The notes below the pieces were generated by a model. That model did no database searches. It saw only the letters and a program-made list of their open reading frames with translations, and was not told the origin of the DNA. This document shows, one piece after another, positions 5,994 through 24,583 of a DNA stretch of 24,583 nt. Made by a program: the position numbers and the translations under genes. Each line of letters starts with the position of its first letter. Position 1 is the first letter of the stretch. Origin of the DNA: a virus; IMG/VR virus record IMGVR_UViG_3300030109_002952, positions 24,749 through 49,331 of that record; one strand, given 5' to 3'.

Positions 5994-7715
5994 TTATCCA
6001 TCACAAGCTAAACAATTCTCATCCATAGCTTGTTGAGCAATATCTCCCCTTAGTACAGATTCTGTACGAACATAATACAAAGTTTTAATACCTTTCTTCC
6101 ATGCTTCTAAATGAACTTTATTAATCCATTTAGGTGTAGCCACAGAAGGAAATGCTAAATTTAAACTAACGGATTGGTCAATATATTGTTGACGTATACC
6201 CGCTTGATTAACTAATTCTAACTGATTAATTTCCTTGAAAGTTTTGAATATTTCTTTGACGGGTATGTCGTGACTTCCGTAAGTAATTTTGTCTAATGCT
6301 TTGATGCCTTGGATTGATCCTCCGTCTTGAAGAATTTTGTTCCATATCTTTTCGTTATCTAATTTATGTTTCTTTAATATCTTTTTTAATGTAGGATTTT
6401 TTCTTATAAAGGTTCCTTTCGCAGACTGCTCAGTAAAAATATTAGCGGCCCAAGGCTCAATGCCAGGACTAACGTTACCACTAAGCTTACTATTAGACAC
6501 AGTAGGAGCAATAGCCCTGAGATGCGTGTTACGCATACCAGTACCACGGCACCATAACGGTTCACCATATGTTTCAGCCAACCCACGACTTGCTCTTTCG
6601 CTTTCAATTTTAATTTGTGAAAATATTCTACGAGTTTCAAACTGCGCAAGTAAACCTTCAAAAGGAATGCCTTTGTTTTGTAAATAGGTATGCCAACCAA
6701 GAACACCAAGTCCAAGAGCTCTACCCTTTTCAGCCGACCTAACAGCGTTTTCAAATCCATACCTATATTTTGCTCTTTGTATAAATTCTTCAAGTACCCC
6801 ATCCAAGAACCATATCGCGTCGTGGATGATGTTTGTATTTTTCCATTCTTCATATTTTGCTAAATTTAATGATGATAAACAACAAACAAAACTATGTGAC
6901 TCATCAGTATGTAATGTAATTTCACTACATATATTTGTCATGTGAACTTTTAAAGCGTTGTCTTTGTAAGCCGCTGGATTTTGTTTGTTAGTGTTCCCCT
7001 TAAAAAGCACGTAAGGTTCTCCAGTAGCTTTACGCTTTTGAAGTAATTTGCTCCAACGTTTTCTAGCTTCCCCATCTCCTTGTTCAAGTCGTCGCATAAA
7101 TTTATCGCCGACGACAGCGCATTGATGTAAGTTAAGCGATTGTCTGTTAATGTCTCCCTTAGGTTCACGTATTTCAATCCATTCATCGAAATCGGGGTGT
7201 TCAATGTTAATATTAACTGATGCAGCTCCTCGTCTGACAGATCCTTGATTAGTGGCAAGTATTGTTGAATCGTATATTTTACAAAAAGGCACAACTCCGT
7301 CGCTTGTTCCATTTCCTGTTATTTTAGCGCCAGCGGGTCTAATCATATTAATTCCAATGCCAACTCCACCGCCGTGCTTAGCGAGTAACATCATCTCTAA
7401 ATTCTTTTGCCCAATATCTTGTATGCTATCAGCAACATCAATTCCAAAACAACTAATAGGTAAACCTCTATCTATACCTGTATTAGAAAGCACTGGTGAC
7501 GCTAAACATAACCAACCCTTCCATATATATTCAAAAAAGGTTTCGGCTAATTCTGGACGATATAAACGCTTTGCAACAGTTGTAGCAACACGCTCATAAG
7601 CATCTTTAGGTGACTCACCATTATATAAATAACCACCAGTAATTGTTTTTTTATAAACATCCGTATCTCCCCAGGTTGGGTAATCAACTCCTTTTTTCCA
7701 ATCTTTATTCCACAT
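5994..7715 (-). CDS. nrdA: Class I ribonucleoside-diphosphate reductase, alpha subunit
   Basis: It reduces ribonucleotides to deoxyribonucleotides together with the beta subunit encoded two genes upstream. Visible catalytic features are Cys89 in ISCFGI, the N-x-C-x-E site NICSEI (Asn261, Cys263, Glu265), the partner Cys in FVCCLSSLN (278/279), the paired Tyr547-Tyr548 for radical transfer in YYVRTES, and the C-terminal redox pair CLAC (568, 571). At 573 residues it is shorter than bacterial NrdA/NrdE, and the N-terminal ATP-cone is absent, so overall dATP shut-off should be missing, as in many phages. It is the last gene of the long minus-strand block, before the shared terminator. Confidence 0.95.
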   Translation of the reverse strand: MWNKDWKKGVDYPTWGDTDVYKKTITGGYLYNGESPKDAYERVATTVAKRLYRPELAETFFEYIWKGWLCLASPVLSNTGIDRGLPISCFGIDVADSIQDIGQKNLEMMLLAKHGGGVGIGINMIRPAGAKITGNGTSDGVVPFCKIYDSTILATNQGSVRRGAASVNINIEHPDFDEWIEIREPKGDINRQSLNLHQCAVVGDKFMRRLEQGDGEARKRWSKLLQKRKATGEPYVLFKGNTNKQNPAAYKDNALKVHMTNICSEITLHTDESHSFVCCLSSLNLAKYEEWKNTNIIHDAIWFLDGVLEEFIQRAKYRYGFENAVRSAEKGRALGLGVLGWHTYLQNKGIPFEGLLAQFETRRIFSQIKIESERASRGLAETYGEPLWCRGTGMRNTHLRAIAPTVSNSKLSGNVSPGIEPWAANIFTEQSAKGTFIRKNPTLKKILKKHKLDNEKIWNKILQDGGSIQGIKALDKITYGSHDIPVKEIFKTFKEINQLELVNQAGIRQQYIDQSVSLNLAFPSVATPKWINKVHLEAWKKGIKTLYYVRTESVLRGDIAQQAMDENCLACDG

Positions 7716-7716
7716 A

Positions 7717-7965
7717 TTATTTTAAAAAATGATTAATCCATGCTGCCAAACCATTTAAGTTTAGAGCTACTAAGTTCCATTGCTTACGTGATGATACCTG
7801 TACTATCACACATAAAAAACCTATTATAAATAATATAGGTTCTAATGTCCATTGCCCAGCCATCAAAAAGGCTGCGCCCGCATATCCAACACGAGACGCA
7901 AACTTTTGATAACTTGTTAATTTATTTGTATAGACTAATAGTCTAAGTAATTTTCTTTTTACCAT
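7717..7965 (-). CDS. Small membrane protein between the RNR subunit genes (82 aa)
   Basis: Two hydrophobic segments are visible (about residues 26-39 and 42-57, WTLEPILFIIGFLCVIV), followed by RKQWNLVALNLNGLAAW and a basic N-terminus. The gene overlaps the beta-subunit stop by 7 nt and ends 1 nt before the alpha start, so it is firmly part of the RNR operon. Function unknown; no nucleotide-metabolism motif. The KQW...N...W pattern is seen in several small phage membrane proteins. Confidence 0.68.
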   Translation of the reverse strand: MVKRKLLRLLVYTNKLTSYQKFASRVGYAGAAFLMAGQWTLEPILFIIGFLCVIVQVSSRKQWNLVALNLNGLAAWINHFLK

Positions 7966-8918
7966 ATATCTTCAAAATCTTCACCTTCATTAGCTTTGCT
8001 ATAATCAGTTGGCCTAATTGCAAAAAAGTCTGTATGAGTGTGACCACCAGTAAGATGATAAAACCAGTTAAGATTATTTGCACAGCCTTCATCATAAGTA
8101 AAAACGCCGTTATAACCCAATTCATTAAGTTTTTCATTTAATCTTTTCTTTATAAAATGTTTTAAATTTTTTGCTTTAAGGTTTTCAATATCACCCATTT
8201 CAAACATTTTATCAATATATTTCATTTCAGCATCATGCATTAAGCTAGCCGCTTCTAATATATCTTTTTCAGCATCTTTTTTAAGTGTAGGCATTTCTTC
8301 GCACATATGTCTAAATAATCTACATCCCATTTTACTGTGTAGTGATTCGTCTCTTACAGACCATTTCATTTGTTGGCCAACACCCTTGAGCAAATTACGT
8401 AATTGAAAGCTGTATAGCACAGCGAAAGCGCTGTATAAGCTAACACCTTCTGCAAAGGCACTAAAAATAGCGAGACTACGACCAATCCCAACAGGGTCGT
8501 CACCATCGTAGCTAACCAAATTTTCAAATCGTTCAGCTGTTGCTGGTTCATGTAAAAAAGCTTCAAAATCTTCGAGTCCGAGTGTTTCATTTAAATAACT
8601 ATAAGCTACAGCGTGTATTGTTTCTTGTGAGCCGAATATCATAGCCATTTGCTGTATCTCATGTTTTGGAAACCATGATACGACTTTTTGTGTCCAGTAG
8701 TCTGATACTGCACATTCTGTTTGAGCAAAACCTAGCAAGATATTTCCTACTAAATTTTTTTCTGCTGGTGTTAATTTTTCATTCCAGTCTTTAACATCAC
8801 CCGACATCGGGATTTCTGTATGTAACCAAAACGCCTGAGCTTGTTTTAACCAGCCTTCTGTATAATACTCAGGGTATTCAAAAGGTTTATACGGTATTCT
8901 TTCATCAAATAATCCCAT
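7959..8918 (-). CDS. nrdB: Class I ribonucleotide reductase, beta subunit
   Basis: The radical-generating subunit. Metal ligands can be placed by spacing: Glu68 (in AQTECAV), Glu99 and His102 (in SQETIHAV), Glu157 (FAEGVS), and Glu191 and His194 (RDESLH). The radical Tyr106 is present four residues after His102. The first ligand is Glu where the E. coli enzyme has Asp84; the 31-residue spacing to the second Glu matches the family exactly. The acidic C-terminus ending FEDIW is the expected alpha-binding tail. Length is 319 aa, close to NrdF. The gene starts 2 nt before a small gene's stop and is transcribed with alpha. Confidence 0.95.
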   Translation of the reverse strand: MGLFDERIPYKPFEYPEYYTEGWLKQAQAFWLHTEIPMSGDVKDWNEKLTPAEKNLVGNILLGFAQTECAVSDYWTQKVVSWFPKHEIQQMAMIFGSQETIHAVAYSYLNETLGLEDFEAFLHEPATAERFENLVSYDGDDPVGIGRSLAIFSAFAEGVSLYSAFAVLYSFQLRNLLKGVGQQMKWSVRDESLHSKMGCRLFRHMCEEMPTLKKDAEKDILEAASLMHDAEMKYIDKMFEMGDIENLKAKNLKHFIKKRLNEKLNELGYNGVFTYDEGCANNLNWFYHLTGGHTHTDFFAIRPTDYSKANEGEDFEDIW

Positions 8919-9202: not shown

Positions 9203-9365
9203 AACATTTTATTGAGTATTTATCATGTATAAACATTAAGTCCTTCCATCTTAAACCTCCTCTTGATTTAATGCTCCACTTGATAAACGTATCTATTTTA
9301 CGTTCTTTATACTTTCTCCTGGCAATGTGCTTGGAGTTCGAAGTATTTCTATTACTTTGTCGCAT
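9195..9365 (-). CDS. Short basic protein (56 aa) overlapping the nuclease gene
   Basis: The frame opens at ATG 9365 inside the 3' end of the PD-(D/E)XK nuclease gene and closes at 9195. Its C-terminal half, KIDTFIKWSIKSRGGLRWK then DLMFIHDKYSIKCYG, looks like a genuine folded small protein and lies largely outside the overlap. The N-terminal 20 residues are read from the overlapping frame, so translation may begin later. The stop overlaps the next ATG (ATGGCTAA). No family recognised. Confidence 0.5.
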   Translation of the reverse strand: MRQSNRNTSNSKHIARRKYKERKIDTFIKWSIKSRGGLRWKDLMFIHDKYSIKCYG

Positions 9366-9778
9366 TCTTTTTGATTTTGTGGTTTAAATAATTTGTAGTT
9401 AGGAAATTGTTGCATAACTAATCTTTTAAATAATTTCCATCTCATTGGAAATGATTCATTGGGTCTTCCTTTAGTTTCAATAATAAAGTCTTTACCAATA
9501 AAATCTGGTGTATATTTAATAGGTAAGATTCTTTTCTCACCTCTGTTTTTAAAATCTCCTTTACTATTTGATTGTCTTTCCCAACATTCATTTTCAAAAT
9601 GAAATCCATTTAATAATACAAAGGTTTCACCTTCATAGCTAGCTTTAATATGTGCTTTTTTCAAAGCTTGATACATATATTTTTCTAACCCGGAAGCGAA
9701 GGTGATACCATCGTATGTTACTTTTTTCGAAACTACAGGGCCTCTTTTTTTTCTTCTTTTATAACTCTTCTTCCTCAT
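9293..9778 (-). CDS. PD-(D/E)XK endonuclease (DUF1064-like)
   Basis: A 161-residue basic protein with VTYDGITFASGLEKYMY (the conserved Glu helix), then KYTPDFIG and FIIETKGR, giving the E...D...ExK triad of PD-(D/E)XK nucleases. The layout matches small phage nucleases annotated as DUF1064 or endonuclease-I-like junction resolvases; the exact subfamily is inferred. The N-terminus (RKKSYKRRKKRG) is highly basic, suiting DNA binding. It sits among replication and recombination genes, so branch cleavage or host DNA breakdown is likely. Its ATG overlaps the upstream gene by 20 nt. Confidence 0.78.
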   Translation of the reverse strand: MRKKSYKRRKKRGPVVSKKVTYDGITFASGLEKYMYQALKKAHIKASYEGETFVLLNGFHFENECWERQSNSKGDFKNRGEKRILPIKYTPDFIGKDFIIETKGRPNESFPMRWKLFKRLVMQQFPNYKLFKPQNQKECDKVIEILRTPSTLPGESIKNVK

Positions 9779-10010
9779 CGAATTGTGTTCTTTTTAGCAT
9801 ACATTCTTCAATCTCATCACATAATACAAGTTTTGCTTTTTCAATATAATTAACAGCATCCATTAATTCTTCTTGTATATGTGTTAACCATGTTTCGAGA
9901 GATTGATCATCATCGTTTAATGTAACACCATATTTTTTATAGCCTACATCTGAACGTGATTTAATCTTATTAATAACACGTTCAATTACTTTATCTCTAA
10001 TCTTACTCAT
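9759..10010 (-). CDS. MazG-neighbour helical protein, pyrophosphohydrolase-like (83 aa)
   Basis: I chose the start at 10010 (MSKIRDKV), where ATGAGTAA overlaps the stop of the upstream gene; an upstream in-frame ATG at 10028 would add six residues. Residues 23-62 (GYKKYGVTL, then LETWLTHIQEELMDAVNYIE) follow the pattern of small all-helical phage proteins with conserved EE...D, as in the NTP pyrophosphohydrolase superfamily. The full set of metal ligands is not clear. It is adjacent to a MazG-domain gene and two genes from the TS-family gene, which supports a role in the nucleotide pool. Confidence 0.68.
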   Translation of the reverse strand: MSKIRDKVIERVINKIKSRSDVGYKKYGVTLNDDDQSLETWLTHIQEELMDAVNYIEKAKLVLCDEIEECMLKRTQFDEEEEL

Positions 10011-10773
10011 CTTTAACAAATGTTCCATTAATCATTTTACCAGTTCTATTTGATATTTGATTATAAGCAGACGCTATGCACGTTTCAATTCTAACGTTTC
10101 TTTGTTCTGCTAAATTAGTTAGTACAACTACCATGTCTCCAATTGCATCAACAAATTCAGCTTGGTCATCTTTTAGCATTGCTTTAGCTAATTCACCAGC
10201 TTCTTCTTGTAACTTAATATATTGAGTTCTAGCATCACCATTTTCATATATACCTCTTACTTCAGCCCAATTTCTAATTGAATCGAATATACTTTGTTGA
10301 GACTCTACATATTCTGCTAAGCTTTCTAAACTATTAGCATTATTAAAGGACTCAATCATTGCTTTATTATATACATAACATCTGTTTTTGTTATACATTG
10401 ATTCATGAGCGTTATCTACTATCCAATGTGCTAAGTCCATATCTAATGACACTTTGCCAAATTCTGTTTTCCAGTTCATTCCTAAACTATCCATTAGTCT
10501 ACCCTTTAATTTATTAAGGGGAACCGGAAAGGTTGTGGTTTGTTCGGTTACGTTTATTTTCATTTTAATTAAATTTTTATAAAGTTTATTATCAATCTTA
10601 TATCCATAAGACTGTTGAAGTTCTATTTCTTTGTCAGATATATAATCTATATCTTCCGATTGATCAAGAACTTCGTACTCTCCAGGCTTGTAGCCCTGCG
10701 TTAGCGTAACTCTATTATTAAGATTACGTGTTACGCCAATTTTTTTACCAGGTATGTGATAAATATAATACAT
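10003..10773 (-). CDS. Fusion: GIY-YIG-like N-terminus with MazG-type C-terminus
   Basis: Residues 1-45 (MYYIYHIPGKKIGVTRNLNN, then R and the GYKPGEYEVL segment) resemble the first strands and helix of GIY-YIG proteins, though YIG is replaced by KIG and the catalytic Glu is not evident. After a linker, residues 165-256 show a MazG-type NTP pyrophosphohydrolase: IRNWAEVRGIYENGDART, QEEAGELAKAM (EExxE) and AEFVDAIGDMVVVL (ExxD). Such enzymes hydrolyse (d)NTPs to monophosphates. The gene lies directly after the TS-family gene, sharing an ATG/stop junction, so it may supply that enzyme's substrate. The function of the N-terminal part is unknown. Confidence 0.78.
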   Translation of the reverse strand: MYYIYHIPGKKIGVTRNLNNRVTLTQGYKPGEYEVLDQSEDIDYISDKEIELQQSYGYKIDNKLYKNLIKMKINVTEQTTTFPVPLNKLKGRLMDSLGMNWKTEFGKVSLDMDLAHWIVDNAHESMYNKNRCYVYNKAMIESFNNANSLESLAEYVESQQSIFDSIRNWAEVRGIYENGDARTQYIKLQEEAGELAKAMLKDDQAEFVDAIGDMVVVLTNLAEQRNVRIETCIASAYNQISNRTGKMINGTFVKDE

Positions 10774-11615
10774 TATTTTCCAACGTTTAACTTTGCCTTT
10801 ATTGGAGGCAAATAATTATAATTAAGTATTTTAAATTGTTTTTTCTTTGGTATTTTTAGACCAGGGTTACTTCTATGCCCACCCTCATATATAATACCAT
10901 CACCAGTTATTTTTAACTTAGGTAATTCAATATTACTTACATCTCTATATACATATTTTTGTGCAGCTTCAAGATGATTAAGGTATAAATGACAATCACC
11001 AAGCTGCGCAATAAGTTTCCCTGGTTTATATTCTGTATTATGACAAAGTAATTCAAGCAGTATAGCATACATTGCAATGTCATATGGTAAACCTAAAAAT
11101 ACATCTGCTGAACGCTGAATCCACATTAAATCCATTTTATCATCATTTATATTAACTTGCATTGCATAATGACATGGTGGTAAAACCATATTCTTTAATT
11201 TATCTGGTCTCCAAGCATTTATAATATGTCTTCTTGATGATGGGTCAATACTAATACCTTTTATTAAATTCATAAGTTGGTCATAGCCATTAAAGTCACG
11301 CCATTGTGCACCGTATACTGGGCCAAGCTTTCCGTCTTTACGACCAGACCTTGCATAATCATCATCCCAATAATGAACATTATTTTCATGTAGATAACCT
11401 AAGTCTGTTCTACCTTGCAATATCCATAATAATTCAGTAATAGCATGATTAAAATATATTTTCTTTCCAACTAATAATGGAAAGCCTATAGACATATCAT
11501 GTTCTAATTGCCTACCGAATAAAGATTTAGTACCAACTCCGGTTCTGTCTTTTTTTGTAGGAGCATGTAATAAATTTGCCATTAAAGCTCTATATTGATT
11601 TTCTATATTTGTCAT
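10773..11615 (-). CDS. thyA: Thymidylate synthase-family enzyme, possible dCMP (hydroxy)methylase
   Basis: From the chosen start at 11615 (MTNIENQY) the product is 280 aa; an earlier in-frame ATG at 11696 would lie well inside the upstream gene. Motifs: Arg24 in DRTGVGT, Glu61 in TELLWILQG, LGPVYGAQWR, the catalytic Cys148 in LPPCHYAMQ, the phosphate-binding QRSADVFLGLP and DCHLYLNH. Where thymidylate synthases have Asn (LPFNIA), this protein reads LPYDIA, with Asp179. That replacement is the known mark of T4-type dCMP hydroxymethylase and switches preference from dUMP to dCMP. So it may make 5-methyl- or 5-hydroxymethyl-dCMP rather than dTMP; family membership is certain, substrate is inferred. 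Confidence 0.92.
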   Translation of the reverse strand: MTNIENQYRALMANLLHAPTKKDRTGVGTKSLFGRQLEHDMSIGFPLLVGKKIYFNHAITELLWILQGRTDLGYLHENNVHYWDDDYARSGRKDGKLGPVYGAQWRDFNGYDQLMNLIKGISIDPSSRRHIINAWRPDKLKNMVLPPCHYAMQVNINDDKMDLMWIQRSADVFLGLPYDIAMYAILLELLCHNTEYKPGKLIAQLGDCHLYLNHLEAAQKYVYRDVSNIELPKLKITGDGIIYEGGHRSNPGLKIPKKKQFKILNYNYLPPIKAKLNVGK

Positions 11616-11874
11616 AATAATATTTACACATTCTATAATATTCAGACCATATTGTATGTTTATCATAAATTGATGGAGATACATTTGCTCTCTCACCTCT
11701 TTTATATGGCCCCATTCTAATTTCTATTTTCCAAGCTTGGTTGTCTTCTTTAATTCCTATTGGTGATATTCTTATGTTATTTCTAACACAATAATTATAT
11801 GCTGCTATTTCTTCCTCATTAGGAAGATAATCTGGCATCCTATAATTTTTTCTTTTACCGTATATGCTTTTCAT
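11590..11874 (-). CDS. Conserved-looking phage protein of unknown function (94 aa)
   Basis: The product starts MKSIYGKRKNYRMPDYLP and continues with EEIAAYNYCVRNNIRISPIG, then WKIEIRMGPYKRGE and a Tyr-rich C-terminus (MCKYYYDKYRK). I recall similar proteins in several marine phages but no function. It overlaps the TS-family gene start by 26 nt and begins immediately after the primase-helicase stop, so it is part of the replication operon. High Tyr/Arg/Lys content could suit nucleic-acid contact, which is speculation. Confidence 0.7.
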   Translation of the reverse strand: MKSIYGKRKNYRMPDYLPNEEEIAAYNYCVRNNIRISPIGIKEDNQAWKIEIRMGPYKRGERANVSPSIYDKHTIWSEYYRMCKYYYDKYRKSI

Positions 11875-13596
11875 TTATTCCCAAGGCATTGGTTCTGCAT
11901 CTAACTGCAGAGGTTCATGTGGTATAAAACTTCCTGACCTTGGTTCCCATGTAAAATGACATTCAGCACCATTCTCACCAAGATTCTGGAATTTTACTTT
12001 AAGCACTTTTGCTTTAACTGTTTTAGCTTCATAATCCCTATGAACTAATAAGCCGTGATAACTTGCATCGTACCATTCGCCACCACCTTTAATGTTATAC
12101 ATTGTAGGTTCTTCAATTTTACCTTCACTTGTTTTATACATTTTAGTTGGATGCGCTACTATGAAAACCAACACATCATACTTTTTAGCAAACATTTCAA
12201 TTTTGCTTAAGTATTCCATTGTATATCTATTTACATCTTCAGTTTTAGCATCCACATCTCTAATCTTATTAAATGGGTCTATAACAAGACATTTGATACC
12301 TTTACGCTTAACTAATTCTGCGCCTTTACGTAATACTGTTTCAAGAGTATAACGTTCCATATCGATGAAGAAAAAGTTATCGTTAACGTGTTCTGCTACT
12401 TGTTTCCATTTAGCTGTGCCAATATCAGATTTTCGTGGCATATCTTGCCAGACTTTACGCATTAATTTATGCGCATGTAAATATGTGGGTGCATTTTCTG
12501 GTGATGCAAATGCTGTTTTCCAGCCGTAGTTATTATTATACCCTACAACCATTTGATCGACAAAATCAGACTTCCCACTGCTAGGGATACCAGTAACAGT
12601 AATAAACTGTCCAGTATAAGTGCTGAATATTTCGTCGAAGTTTTTGATACCAATTTGGTACCCTTTCTTAAAACCGTTTTGTACAAAGTCAGTAACTTCA
12701 TGTTCTATATCTTTAAAAGTTGTTACATTTTCTAATGGTACTGGTCTACATTCAGTAATTGTTTTTGCTAAATCTTCTTTACCATATTTTAATAAATATT
12801 CATTAGCATCTTTACAATCAATAAAATTAACTAAGAAACAAACTTCTGCTCCAAGCCGTCTAATTAATTCTGTCTGAAGTGCTATACCAGCTTCATCAGC
12901 GTCTACTGCTAAGATTATTTTTTCTTTATCTTCAAAGTAATCTATACAGTTATCTAAATAATCTAAATTGTTATGATTTAATGTAGCTCCGTTTGGTACG
13001 GATATTACATTATGTATTCCCGCTTCATGGTAAGACAGTACATCCATCTCACCTTCAACAATAACACAAGTGTCATAACCCACTATGCTATTAATATTAT
13101 AAAAGACTTTCTCAGCACCTTTATATAATTTAAAATGCTTACGTCCGTCTCTATATTTTATATTGATAAGCTCATCACCTATCATGTAGTTGAATTTAAT
13201 TGTGTTTTCAACCTTGCCTGTTTGTGGCATGAATTCTGGGCCTTCAGATACATTTACTTCTTCTAATGTATCTTTTGATATGCCTCTCTGTTCAAACCAT
13301 TCAATTACTTTACTACTAACTGGCTTATGCGTTTTTGTAGAATAATCTGGTTTAATATATTCTTTATCCCCGCCGCCTTTACGTTGATAAGTATGTAATT
13401 GAAATGTTGAGTTACAGTTGTGGCAAGTACCAAGACCACGCTCCCAATCATAACTAGCACATTTTTGTTTCCTGTTTTCAGGCTTACGGTCATGTGAACA
13501 CAGGGGACAAATCCCCTGCGTTGCACCAACCTTCAAATCATGCTGGTTAAACTGGTCGATTAAGAATCCATTAATCTCCGCGTTGTTTACTTGCAT
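11875..13596 (-). CDS. T7 gp4/Twinkle-type DNA primase-helicase
   Basis: One 573-aa chain carries a zinc ribbon (Cys30, Cys33, Cys58, Cys61), a TOPRIM domain with VIVEGEMDVL (Glu181) and ILAVDADEAG (Asp232, Asp234), and a RecA-like helicase domain with Walker A GIPSSGKS (336-343), Walker B CLVIDPFN (about 436-443) and VFIVAHPTK. It unwinds DNA as a hexamer and makes primers at the replication fork, supported by the SSB encoded just upstream. The C-terminus is acidic (ending LDAEPMPWE), as in T7 gp4 where the tail contacts polymerase. No DNA polymerase gene is present in the window. Confidence 0.94.
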   Translation of the reverse strand: MQVNNAEINGFLIDQFNQHDLKVGATQGICPLCSHDRKPENRKQKCASYDWERGLGTCHNCNSTFQLHTYQRKGGGDKEYIKPDYSTKTHKPVSSKVIEWFEQRGISKDTLEEVNVSEGPEFMPQTGKVENTIKFNYMIGDELINIKYRDGRKHFKLYKGAEKVFYNINSIVGYDTCVIVEGEMDVLSYHEAGIHNVISVPNGATLNHNNLDYLDNCIDYFEDKEKIILAVDADEAGIALQTELIRRLGAEVCFLVNFIDCKDANEYLLKYGKEDLAKTITECRPVPLENVTTFKDIEHEVTDFVQNGFKKGYQIGIKNFDEIFSTYTGQFITVTGIPSSGKSDFVDQMVVGYNNNYGWKTAFASPENAPTYLHAHKLMRKVWQDMPRKSDIGTAKWKQVAEHVNDNFFFIDMERYTLETVLRKGAELVKRKGIKCLVIDPFNKIRDVDAKTEDVNRYTMEYLSKIEMFAKKYDVLVFIVAHPTKMYKTSEGKIEEPTMYNIKGGGEWYDASYHGLLVHRDYEAKTVKAKVLKVKFQNLGENGAECHFTWEPRSGSFIPHEPLQLDAEPMPWE

Positions 13597-16980: not shown

Positions 16981-17213
16981 TTTCTTGTATATTTTACATC
17001 ACCGTAAACAATCAATTGTATATCAGAATCTGTATACACCGACTTATCTGGGTAATTTAAGTATCTATTTACTATTTGTGTGTTTTTATCCAGCGGTAGA
17101 TTGTAATTTATATATATCGCTGTGAATAGTGCAGAATTGATTGCTATCAATATCACTATAATAATTTTCGACAACGTCTCTAGGAATTGTGTCGTGGGTA
17201 TAAGGTGTTTCAT
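16977..17213 (-). CDS. Small membrane-anchored protein overlapping the upstream gene (about 78 aa)
   Basis: The frame extends far into the upstream gene. I place the start at ATG 17213, giving MKHLIPTTQFLETLSK and one transmembrane helix (IIIVILIAINSALFTAIYI), then a polar tail ending YGDVKYTRK. The 109 bases outside the overlap (16977-17085) have no other gene, and the stop is joined to the next ATG as ATGA, so some product of this frame is likely. GTG or TTG codons nearer 17150 are possible starts, so the N-terminus is uncertain. Confidence 0.5.
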   Translation of the reverse strand: MKHLIPTTQFLETLSKIIIVILIAINSALFTAIYINYNLPLDKNTQIVNRYLNYPDKSVYTDSDIQLIVYGDVKYTRK

Positions 17214-17652
17214 TTTTGTTGCATATTTTTCGTTTATCAATAATATAATAACGCCAGTAACCGTGTATAGCATTTACCATTTTATATTCATCTGGCATAC
17301 ATTGTGGTGGACGTTCAAATTCTTTAGTGGGCATACCGGCGGGTGGATGCATTAAAGCTTCAGCACATTTAGTAATAGTTAAATGTCTTTTGCCGTAGCG
17401 TTTAGTATATTCATTGCCTAGTGCCAACATATGTTCATACAGCCAATAATAATGGTGTGTATTACTGCGTGTCCATATAGTAGATGGATGATTAAGGTGA
17501 GCTTGTTTATAGGGCACATTGTCGCCATTATTATAAACATGGTGTGCAGTGCATAACATTTGTGCGGATTCCAATATCATCTTTACTTTGTGCTTATCAT
17601 AAACATATGAAGCGGCACGCTTAGGGCAATCATGTAAGTAAAATATATTCAT
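17086..17652 (-). CDS. Conserved phage protein, MNIFYL / DKHKVKM family (188 aa)
   Basis: The N-terminus MNIFYLHDCPKRAASYVYDK, followed by HKVKMILESAQMLCTAHHVY, then HPSTIWTRSNTHHYYWLYEH and EYTKRYGKRH, matches a family I recall from many cyanophages and marine phages. Some are annotated as pyrimidine-dimer glycosylase-like, but I cannot confirm that. His/Lys/Glu-rich helices with conserved YRYY-type aromatic residues hint at nucleic-acid binding. The gene ends inside the next small gene and starts 4 nt into the upstream gene's stop. Confidence 0.8.
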   Translation of the reverse strand: MNIFYLHDCPKRAASYVYDKHKVKMILESAQMLCTAHHVYNNGDNVPYKQAHLNHPSTIWTRSNTHHYYWLYEHMLALGNEYTKRYGKRHLTITKCAEALMHPPAGMPTKEFERPPQCMPDEYKMVNAIHGYWRYYIIDKRKICNKNETPYTHDTIPRDVVENYYSDIDSNQFCTIHSDIYKLQSTAG

Positions 17653-24093: not shown

Positions 24094-24583
24094 ATGGAAT
24101 ATAATAACCCAAGTGAGATAGTAAAAGATCTGTCTTTCGGGACAGATGCAAGAAAAAAAATCATGCACGGGGTTGATAAACTAGCAAATGCAGTAAAATC
24201 GACCCTTGGTGCTTCCGGTAAATGCGTTATATATGAAGACGCTATGGGCCGGCCGGTCATTACAAAAGACGGTGTAACCGTTGCGGAAAGCGTAGTCTTA
24301 TATGATCCGGTCGAAAACATAGGCGCAACTTTAATTAAGGAGGCAGCTAGAAATACAGTAAAAGAAGCTGGTGACGGCACAACAACAGCAACAGTGTTAG
24401 CGCAAACATTGCTGCATTTAGCGTATGCTAAGATTGATTCTGACGGTATTCGTGATATTAAATTAGGTATATCATCAGGATTGGATAAAGTGACTGAGTA
24501 CTTACAGGAGGAAGCATTACCGGTCGAAGGGGACATGTTAAGATCCGTAAGTGCTATCAGTTGCAATAATGATGAAGCTCTAG
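24094..24583 (+). CDS. groEL: GroEL-type chaperonin (N-terminal part, runs off window)
   Basis: From ATG 24094 the frame stays open to the window end (163 codons of a family usually near 540). The group I chaperonin equatorial domain is plain: LSFGTDARKKIMHGVDKLAN, TLGASGKCVIYED (where hosts have TLGPKGRNVVL), ITKDGVTVAESVVL, IGATLIKEAA and the nucleotide site EAGDGTTTATVLAQ with its Asp. The Pro and Lys of GPKG are replaced by Ala and Ser, so it is diverged. A phage GroEL may fold capsid or other virion proteins, with host GroES or alone; no groES-like gene is seen just upstream. Confidence 0.93.
   Translation, partial: MEYNNPSEIVKDLSFGTDARKKIMHGVDKLANAVKSTLGASGKCVIYEDAMGRPVITKDGVTVAESVVLYDPVENIGATLIKEAARNTVKEAGDGTTTATVLAQTLLHLAYAKIDSDGIRDIKLGISSGLDKVTEYLQEEALPVEGDMLRSVSAISCNNDEAL

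Follow-up and report, generated by a model that had tools for sequence, protein, structure and literature searches.

A thymidylate synthase homologue with aspartate at the uracil-reading position, predicted to act on dCMP, alternates with dCMP hydroxymethylase-type enzymes in one operon slot of marine phages

The thymidylate synthase (TS) homologue described here carries aspartate at the position where canonical TS reads uracil with asparagine, and in sequence terms this is a natural, clade-wide fixation on the TS scaffold of a change known before from laboratory mutants. The stretch of DNA analysed, hereafter the window, comprises 24,583 nucleotides and makes up the final half of an IMG/VR virus record 49.3 kb long (IMGVR_UViG_3300030109_002952). 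Given the residues of the enzyme and the genes that accompany it, a cytosine nucleotide (dCMP) is well supported as its predicted substrate. The best explanation of the whole, to which we assign a probability of roughly 60%, is that a dCMP-acting TS homologue produces 5-methyl-dCMP, leading to 5-methylcytosine (5mC) in the phage DNA.

The preliminary description had located LPYDIA in this gene, with Asp179 where E. coli has Asn177, together with a retained catalytic Cys, and both are present, on the minus strand: the plus-strand translation of the interval contains many stops, while the minus strand gives an uninterrupted protein from its ATG. The protein begins MTNIENQY, a start common to its relatives, and carries the motif QRSADVFLGLPYDIAMY. 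A full-domain match to PF00303 thymidylate synthase (E 4.8e-77 over residues 7-277; also phrog_160), together with the catalytic Cys148, places it in the TS superfamily. Asp179 aligns to both E. coli Asn177 and T4 gp42 Asp179, so that where the dUMP-specific ThyA has Asn, the window protein has the residue expected of a dCMP-acting member of the family. Cys148, His149, Arg128/129, Arg168, Ser169, Asp171, His209, Tyr211, Glu61, and Tyr101 are kept and are invariant in a 30-member alignment. The earlier statement that all other core residues were retained thus holds for the catalytic and phosphate-binding residues but not for two others, as Tyr occupies the position of E. coli F176 and E. coli W83 is not conserved, the latter also in T4 td. 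The AlphaFold model (pLDDT 91.4) superposes on ThyA structures with Z ~34.9 over 256 residues, at ~40% identity to solved TS structures. The fold, the cofactor-site and catalytic residues and the C-terminal tail are shared with ThyA and T4 Td, and the differences are Asn177 to Asp, Phe176 to Tyr and a Gly-Lys ending that runs two residues beyond the usual terminal Val. Comparison with relatives gave dN/dS of ~0.1-0.2, indicating purifying selection on the gene, and this, together with the invariance of the Asp in relatives and clade, leads us to reject chance or error as the origin of Asp179.

The Asp is found in all 21 close relatives (76-93% identity). Since a whole-protein search is biased, wider sampling relied on a residue-blind scan, a profile search with DNA patterns (M[AV]LPPCHY and QRS[AV]DVFL) that leave out position 177, and it recovered Asp in 67/67 clade members and Asn in 13/13 of the nearest outgroup sequences. 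In a tree of 112 sequences the window protein belongs to a clade of 58 rows, all with Asp, that has an SH-aLRT of 99 and is surrounded by Asn enzymes; changes between Asn and Asp number five on the best tree, and at least two are forced by supported branches. The Asp clade is viral and uncultured, its members from bacterial assemblies being three short contigs from two MAGs, and a phage isolate collection held no close match to the protein (best ~41%). Tyr at 176 goes with Asp at 177 (65/70 vs 2/42), with too few independent pairs for a test. It weighs against the best explanation that one TS clade amounts to about one evolutionary event, and the independent-pairs test was not significant, the pairs being too few. 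A separate Asp lineage occurs in L078 (IMGVR_UViG_2706795394_000001, 171 kb, a large phage) and L148, whose T4 Td-like TS has LPFDIG (Asp177); in L148 a DHFR gene lies directly upstream.

The gene belongs to a minus-strand operon in the order primase-helicase, small ORF, TS, T5orf172-MazG fusion, 89-aa protein, DUF1064 endonuclease, and the small and large subunits of ribonucleotide reductase (RNR) (Table 1). Searches of Pfam and PHROG returned no family for the 94-aa ORF, and Pfam, PDB and Foldseek returned no match for the 89-aa protein, the family of which has a KYGVTL..EEL.DA motif (phrog_17558/11184) and occurs also near a separate Asp177 TS (L154). The terminase is 45% identical to that of Flavobacterium 'elemo' podophages and 62% to that of an unassigned podovirus, and several secreted proteins have Bacteroidota-like signal peptides (judged by eye), from which the host is probably a flavobacterium. 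Elsewhere in the window, a partial GroEL gene lies at 24094-24582 (plus strand), and in the relative L033 (8025-9834) a GroES-like gene comes after GroEL; at 17086-17652 (minus strand) the predicted product resembles pyrimidine dimer DNA glycosylases (phrog_624; PF03013 at threshold). The first ORF of the window continues from a very large protein, and in L003 a few undetermined bases, translated as four X in the reading frame, stand just upstream of it.

Table 1. Operon genes around the TS slot and the codon of the substituted residue (window coordinates).
Feature	Coordinates	Strand	Evidence
Toprim primase-DnaB helicase, conserved upstream neighbour bracketing the TS slot	11875..13596	minus	PF13155, PF03796
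94-aa small ORF just upstream of the TS gene	11590..11874	minus	homologues upstream of TS in many clade loci
TS-family enzyme, Asp179 (= E. coli Asn177), 280 aa; predicted dCMP methylase (5-methyl-dCMP)	10773..11615	minus	PF00303, invariant Asp179/Cys148, AlphaFold model
Asp179 codon (GAC) in LPYDIA	11079..11081	minus	residue count from ATG at 11615
T5orf172/MUG113 (GIY-YIG-like) N-terminal half fused to MazG-type NTP pyrophosphohydrolase	10003..10773	minus	PF01503 4e-6, PF03819
89-aa all-helical protein, third operon gene	9759..10028	minus	conserved beside MazG in class A and class B operons
DUF1064 / Holliday-junction-resolvase-like endonuclease	9293..9778	minus	PF06356 3.2e-8, phrog_190
Class I RNR small subunit	7959..8918	minus	PF00268 1.4e-57
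Class I RNR large subunit	5994..7715	minus	PF02867 2e-93

The presence of a MazG-type gene follows the substituted residue closely. Of the clade loci, 64/64 have such a gene close to the TS, vs 0/13 Asn-sister loci, and in the first, pattern-based sets the figures were 89/104 Asp and 0/99 Asn loci. Searched from the MazG side, 154 of 160 loci contained a TS-family gene, and every one of the 153 that could be classified had Asp177. The fusion with T5orf172/MUG113 is maintained throughout the clade, and among homologues of the fusion protein MazG is present in 26/26 and T5orf172 in 11/26. A MazG gene that stands alone comes after the TS in another Asp group (L049, L084, L079), and that of L049 aligns to the C-terminal half of the fusion with 61% identity; the enzymes of AXL1 and L066 (Xp12 type) also adjoin a PF01503 protein. 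MazG relatives of 37-52% identity are present in many phages, so that the MazG domain alone is no marker of cytosine modification. By analogy with T4 gp56, a dCTPase, and with human DCTPP1, the MazG of the fusion is predicted probably to hydrolyse dCTP to dCMP. Human DCTPP1 is a dCTP pyrophosphatase of the MazG fold (PMC7162842, PMC4491611).

The slot between the primase-helicase and the MazG gene is occupied by two kinds of enzyme. Class A resembles the window protein, with Leu three residues before the catalytic Cys (Cys-3), Pro two residues before Tyr (Tyr-2) and ~67 residues after the HLYLNH motif. In class B the two positions hold Asp (DTPC) and Ser (SNYG), a GFCND motif occurs and there is almost no tail, in agreement with the published signature of dCMP hydroxymethylases, which combines Asp at Cys-3 and Ser at Tyr-2 with the lack of a C-terminal tail (PMC6400193). 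The best PDB match of class B is T4 dCMP hydroxymethylase (E 1.1e-19), followed by MilA. Loci with the fusion MazG hold class B in 50/77 cases and class A in 24/77. The operons are syntenic and neighbours of the slot are ~64-89% identical across the classes, and in the closest pairs the primase-helicase reaches 76-89% and MazG 75-76% vs only 22-27% for the slot enzyme itself. Of the class A operons 23/24 include the DUF1064 endonuclease, as do 48/50 of the class B operons, and long genomes of both classes have terminase, portal, capsid, helicase and RNR in common. The class changes at least twice on supported branches of the MazG tree (four times on the best tree) and at least five times on those of the RNR small-subunit tree (nine on the best tree), a count possibly inflated by recombination between loci. 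These changes indicate that the slot has been exchanged repeatedly between distantly related enzymes, both with the cytosine-reading Asp. The class B loci (L530-L601, e.g., L536:3265-3996 of IMGVR_UViG_3300021373_001378) come from marine phages that are near relatives of the window phage. Among cultured phages, BF486P2 of Bacteroides also carries a class B enzyme, and MazG of the fusion family was absent among the six neighbouring proteins tested.

Gene content also differs between the classes. An ATP-dependent DNA ligase is found in 7/7 class B vs 4/9 class A genomes (e.g., L610:14773-15657, minus strand), and a 177-aa protein with neither a Pfam nor a PHROG match (L612:342-875, minus strand) in 5/7 vs 0/9, making the latter a candidate for a step specific to 5-hydroxymethylcytosine. 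No recognisable extra modification enzyme appeared among the genes enriched in class B genomes.

The preference for dCMP put forward in the preliminary description fares well to the extent that the fixed Asp and the MazG partner support a cytosine-nucleotide substrate, with the strongest support coming from the repeated replacement with a gp42-type enzyme in the same slot. The gene could instead encode an ordinary or dual-specificity TS serving mainly the supply of dTMP, with the Asp as a tolerated variant. Many phages carry TS genes, which raise dTTP, and the window protein keeps the canonical TS fold and catalytic residues; moreover, the record yielded no other TS and no ThyX. Such a role is nevertheless improbable in view of the strict fixation of Asp, including all classified enzymes beside MazG, the gp42-type replacement, and the loss of dUMP preference in published Asn-to-Asp mutants.

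As to the product, for which 5-methyl- and 5-hydroxymethylcytosine nucleotides had both been proposed, the hydroxymethyl half gains no support from the published signature, and the residues point to the methyl half. The window protein has Leu145 at Cys-3 and Pro99 at Tyr-2, positions at which a hydroxymethylase would be expected to have Asp/Glu and Ser/Thr, and a tail of TS length that would close over the folate, with 67 residues after HLYLNH vs 26 in gp42. The Cys-3 residue is Asp in the T4 gp42 (dCMP) and SPO1 gp29 (dUMP) hydroxymethylases and Leu in E. coli ThyA, T4 td and the window protein, and replacing this Asp in T4 gp42 (D145N) abolishes activity (PMC6400193). The Asn-to-Asp TS mutant is a dCMP methylase according to the title of Liu and Santi (1992). 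Together with the Leu, the Pro and the TS-type tail, this favours 5-methyl-dCMP as the likelier product, by about two to one over 5-hydroxymethyl-dCMP. The enzyme may still hydroxymethylate dCMP as T4 gp42 does, having arisen from the TS scaffold by another route, and would then give phage DNA with 5-hydroxymethylcytosine. The repeated swap with gp42-type enzymes in one slot suggests equal roles and could mean the same product from both. A phage DHFR, for which a hydroxymethylase would have no use, was not found in the records scanned, although hydride transfer yields dihydrofolate, and in most members the tail is two residues longer than in TS, which might loosen closure. We consider this unlikely, though well worth bearing in mind, given the absence of the hydroxymethylase residues, the intact tail and the published mutants. 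The Gly-Lys extension was also considered as a mark of hydroxymethylases and dropped, as some clade members end at the usual place.

Family scans of the 21 records did not find a second TS, ThyX, dCMP deaminase, DHFR or family-A polymerase, and since most of these records are fragments the absence is only suggestive. Without a phage dCMP deaminase or second TS among the genes found, and with a genome that is AT-rich (mostly 28-38% GC), 5-methyl-dCMP might be an intermediate that a host dCMP deaminase converts to dTMP, so that the phage would gain thymidylate and keep unmodified DNA. This is very improbable, as it leaves the exchange with dCMP hydroxymethylases unexplained, the product of which would give 5-hydroxymethyl-dUMP.

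Under the preferred reading, with 5-methyl-dCMP as product, Asp179 in place of the uracil-reading Asn would let the enzyme bind cytosine, as published mutants suggest, after which Cys148 would attack C6 of dCMP and methylene-tetrahydrofolate would give the one-carbon unit. The TS-type pocket and the closing tail, both retained, would favour hydride transfer to 5-methyl-dCMP rather than hydration to 5-hydroxymethyl-dCMP. The MazG encoded directly downstream would probably turn dCTP into dCMP, depleting the unmodified dCTP and at once supplying the enzyme with substrate, in the manner of T4 gp56 and gp42. The 5-methyl-dCMP would then be phosphorylated, probably by a host kinase, and 5mC polymerised into phage DNA, where it would block host restriction; related phages have a gp42-type dCMP hydroxymethylase in the same slot. 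Protection of virion DNA by modified cytosine, as the preliminary description had proposed, is plausible. It counts against this scheme that the family scans revealed no phage dNMP kinase. The Pfam matches listed (25 of 26 families) for 45 ORFs of a 64-kb relative, the large virion proteins left out, include no glycosyltransferase, carbamoyltransferase or kinase.

Several known systems resemble the window enzyme. In MetaGPA, no family was more strongly associated with modified-cytosine phage DNA than TS, and Asp177 was the key residue; Asp177 TS and PF01503 occurred together in APOBEC-resistant, modified-cytosine phage contigs, to which DNA ligases were also tied (PMC8670742). The window enzyme is alike in TS family, Asp177, phage origin and a nearby PF01503 pyrophosphohydrolase; however, the second position singled out by MetaGPA, 147, is the canonical His here, which argues against the best explanation, and neither a dCMP deaminase nor, in the scanned relative, a carbamoyltransferase domain was found. 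In phage Xp12, all cytosine is replaced by 5mC (PMC7653180). Its relative, Stenotrophomonas phage AXL1, has restriction-resistant DNA and, like the window, an Asp177 TS beside a PF01503 pyrophosphohydrolase, but the AXL1 enzyme is divergent, with Asn at Cys-3 and no TS tail, and adjoins dCMP deaminase and DHFR genes, whereas the window protein is near canonical TS and has neither partner. Since 5mC is believed to be present in AXL1 DNA, the tail is not a fully reliable guide, a further point against the best explanation. T4 gp42 shares Asp179 and the catalytic Cys, and a gp42-type enzyme fills the slot of sister phages, yet the two differ at Cys-3 (Asp in gp42, Leu here), at Tyr-2 (Ser in gp42, Pro here) and in the C-terminal tail, which gp42 lacks and which is complete here. 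The L. casei N229D and E. coli N177D mutants carry the same single change on a TS scaffold, reported to give a dCMP methylase; those are laboratory products, while the Asp of the window protein occurs naturally and has become fixed across a viral clade.

MetaGPA has already published the residue switch and connected it with modified-cytosine phages. The Asp clade, its operon partner and the enzyme exchange appear to be new, as a search of the open-licence literature returned no report of the clade, of the T5orf172-MazG partner or of the exchange between classes A and B. Our results also raise the possibility, tentative and somewhat short of even odds, that a laboratory-type Asn-to-Asp TS occurring clade-wide makes 5-methyl-dCMP and that a marine flavophage-like podovirus lineage has gone back and forth between DNA with 5-methylcytosine and DNA with 5-hydroxymethylcytosine through the exchange of a single gene, which adjoins a dedicated dCTP pyrophosphohydrolase while the rest of the operon stays the same.

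Viruses of the window type probably build their DNA with chemically tagged cytosine, and a textbook specificity switch would thereby be seen in nature on a nearly canonical TS scaffold. The TS slot with its MazG gene would offer a genetic cassette for predicting cytosine modification in uncultured phages, and the label 'thymidylate synthase' is probably wrong for many of the marine phage genes that carry it. If the enzymes of the slot make different bases, the exchange of one gene would alter the chemistry of the DNA, providing these phages with a simple escape from restriction, including from enzymes that cut modified DNA.
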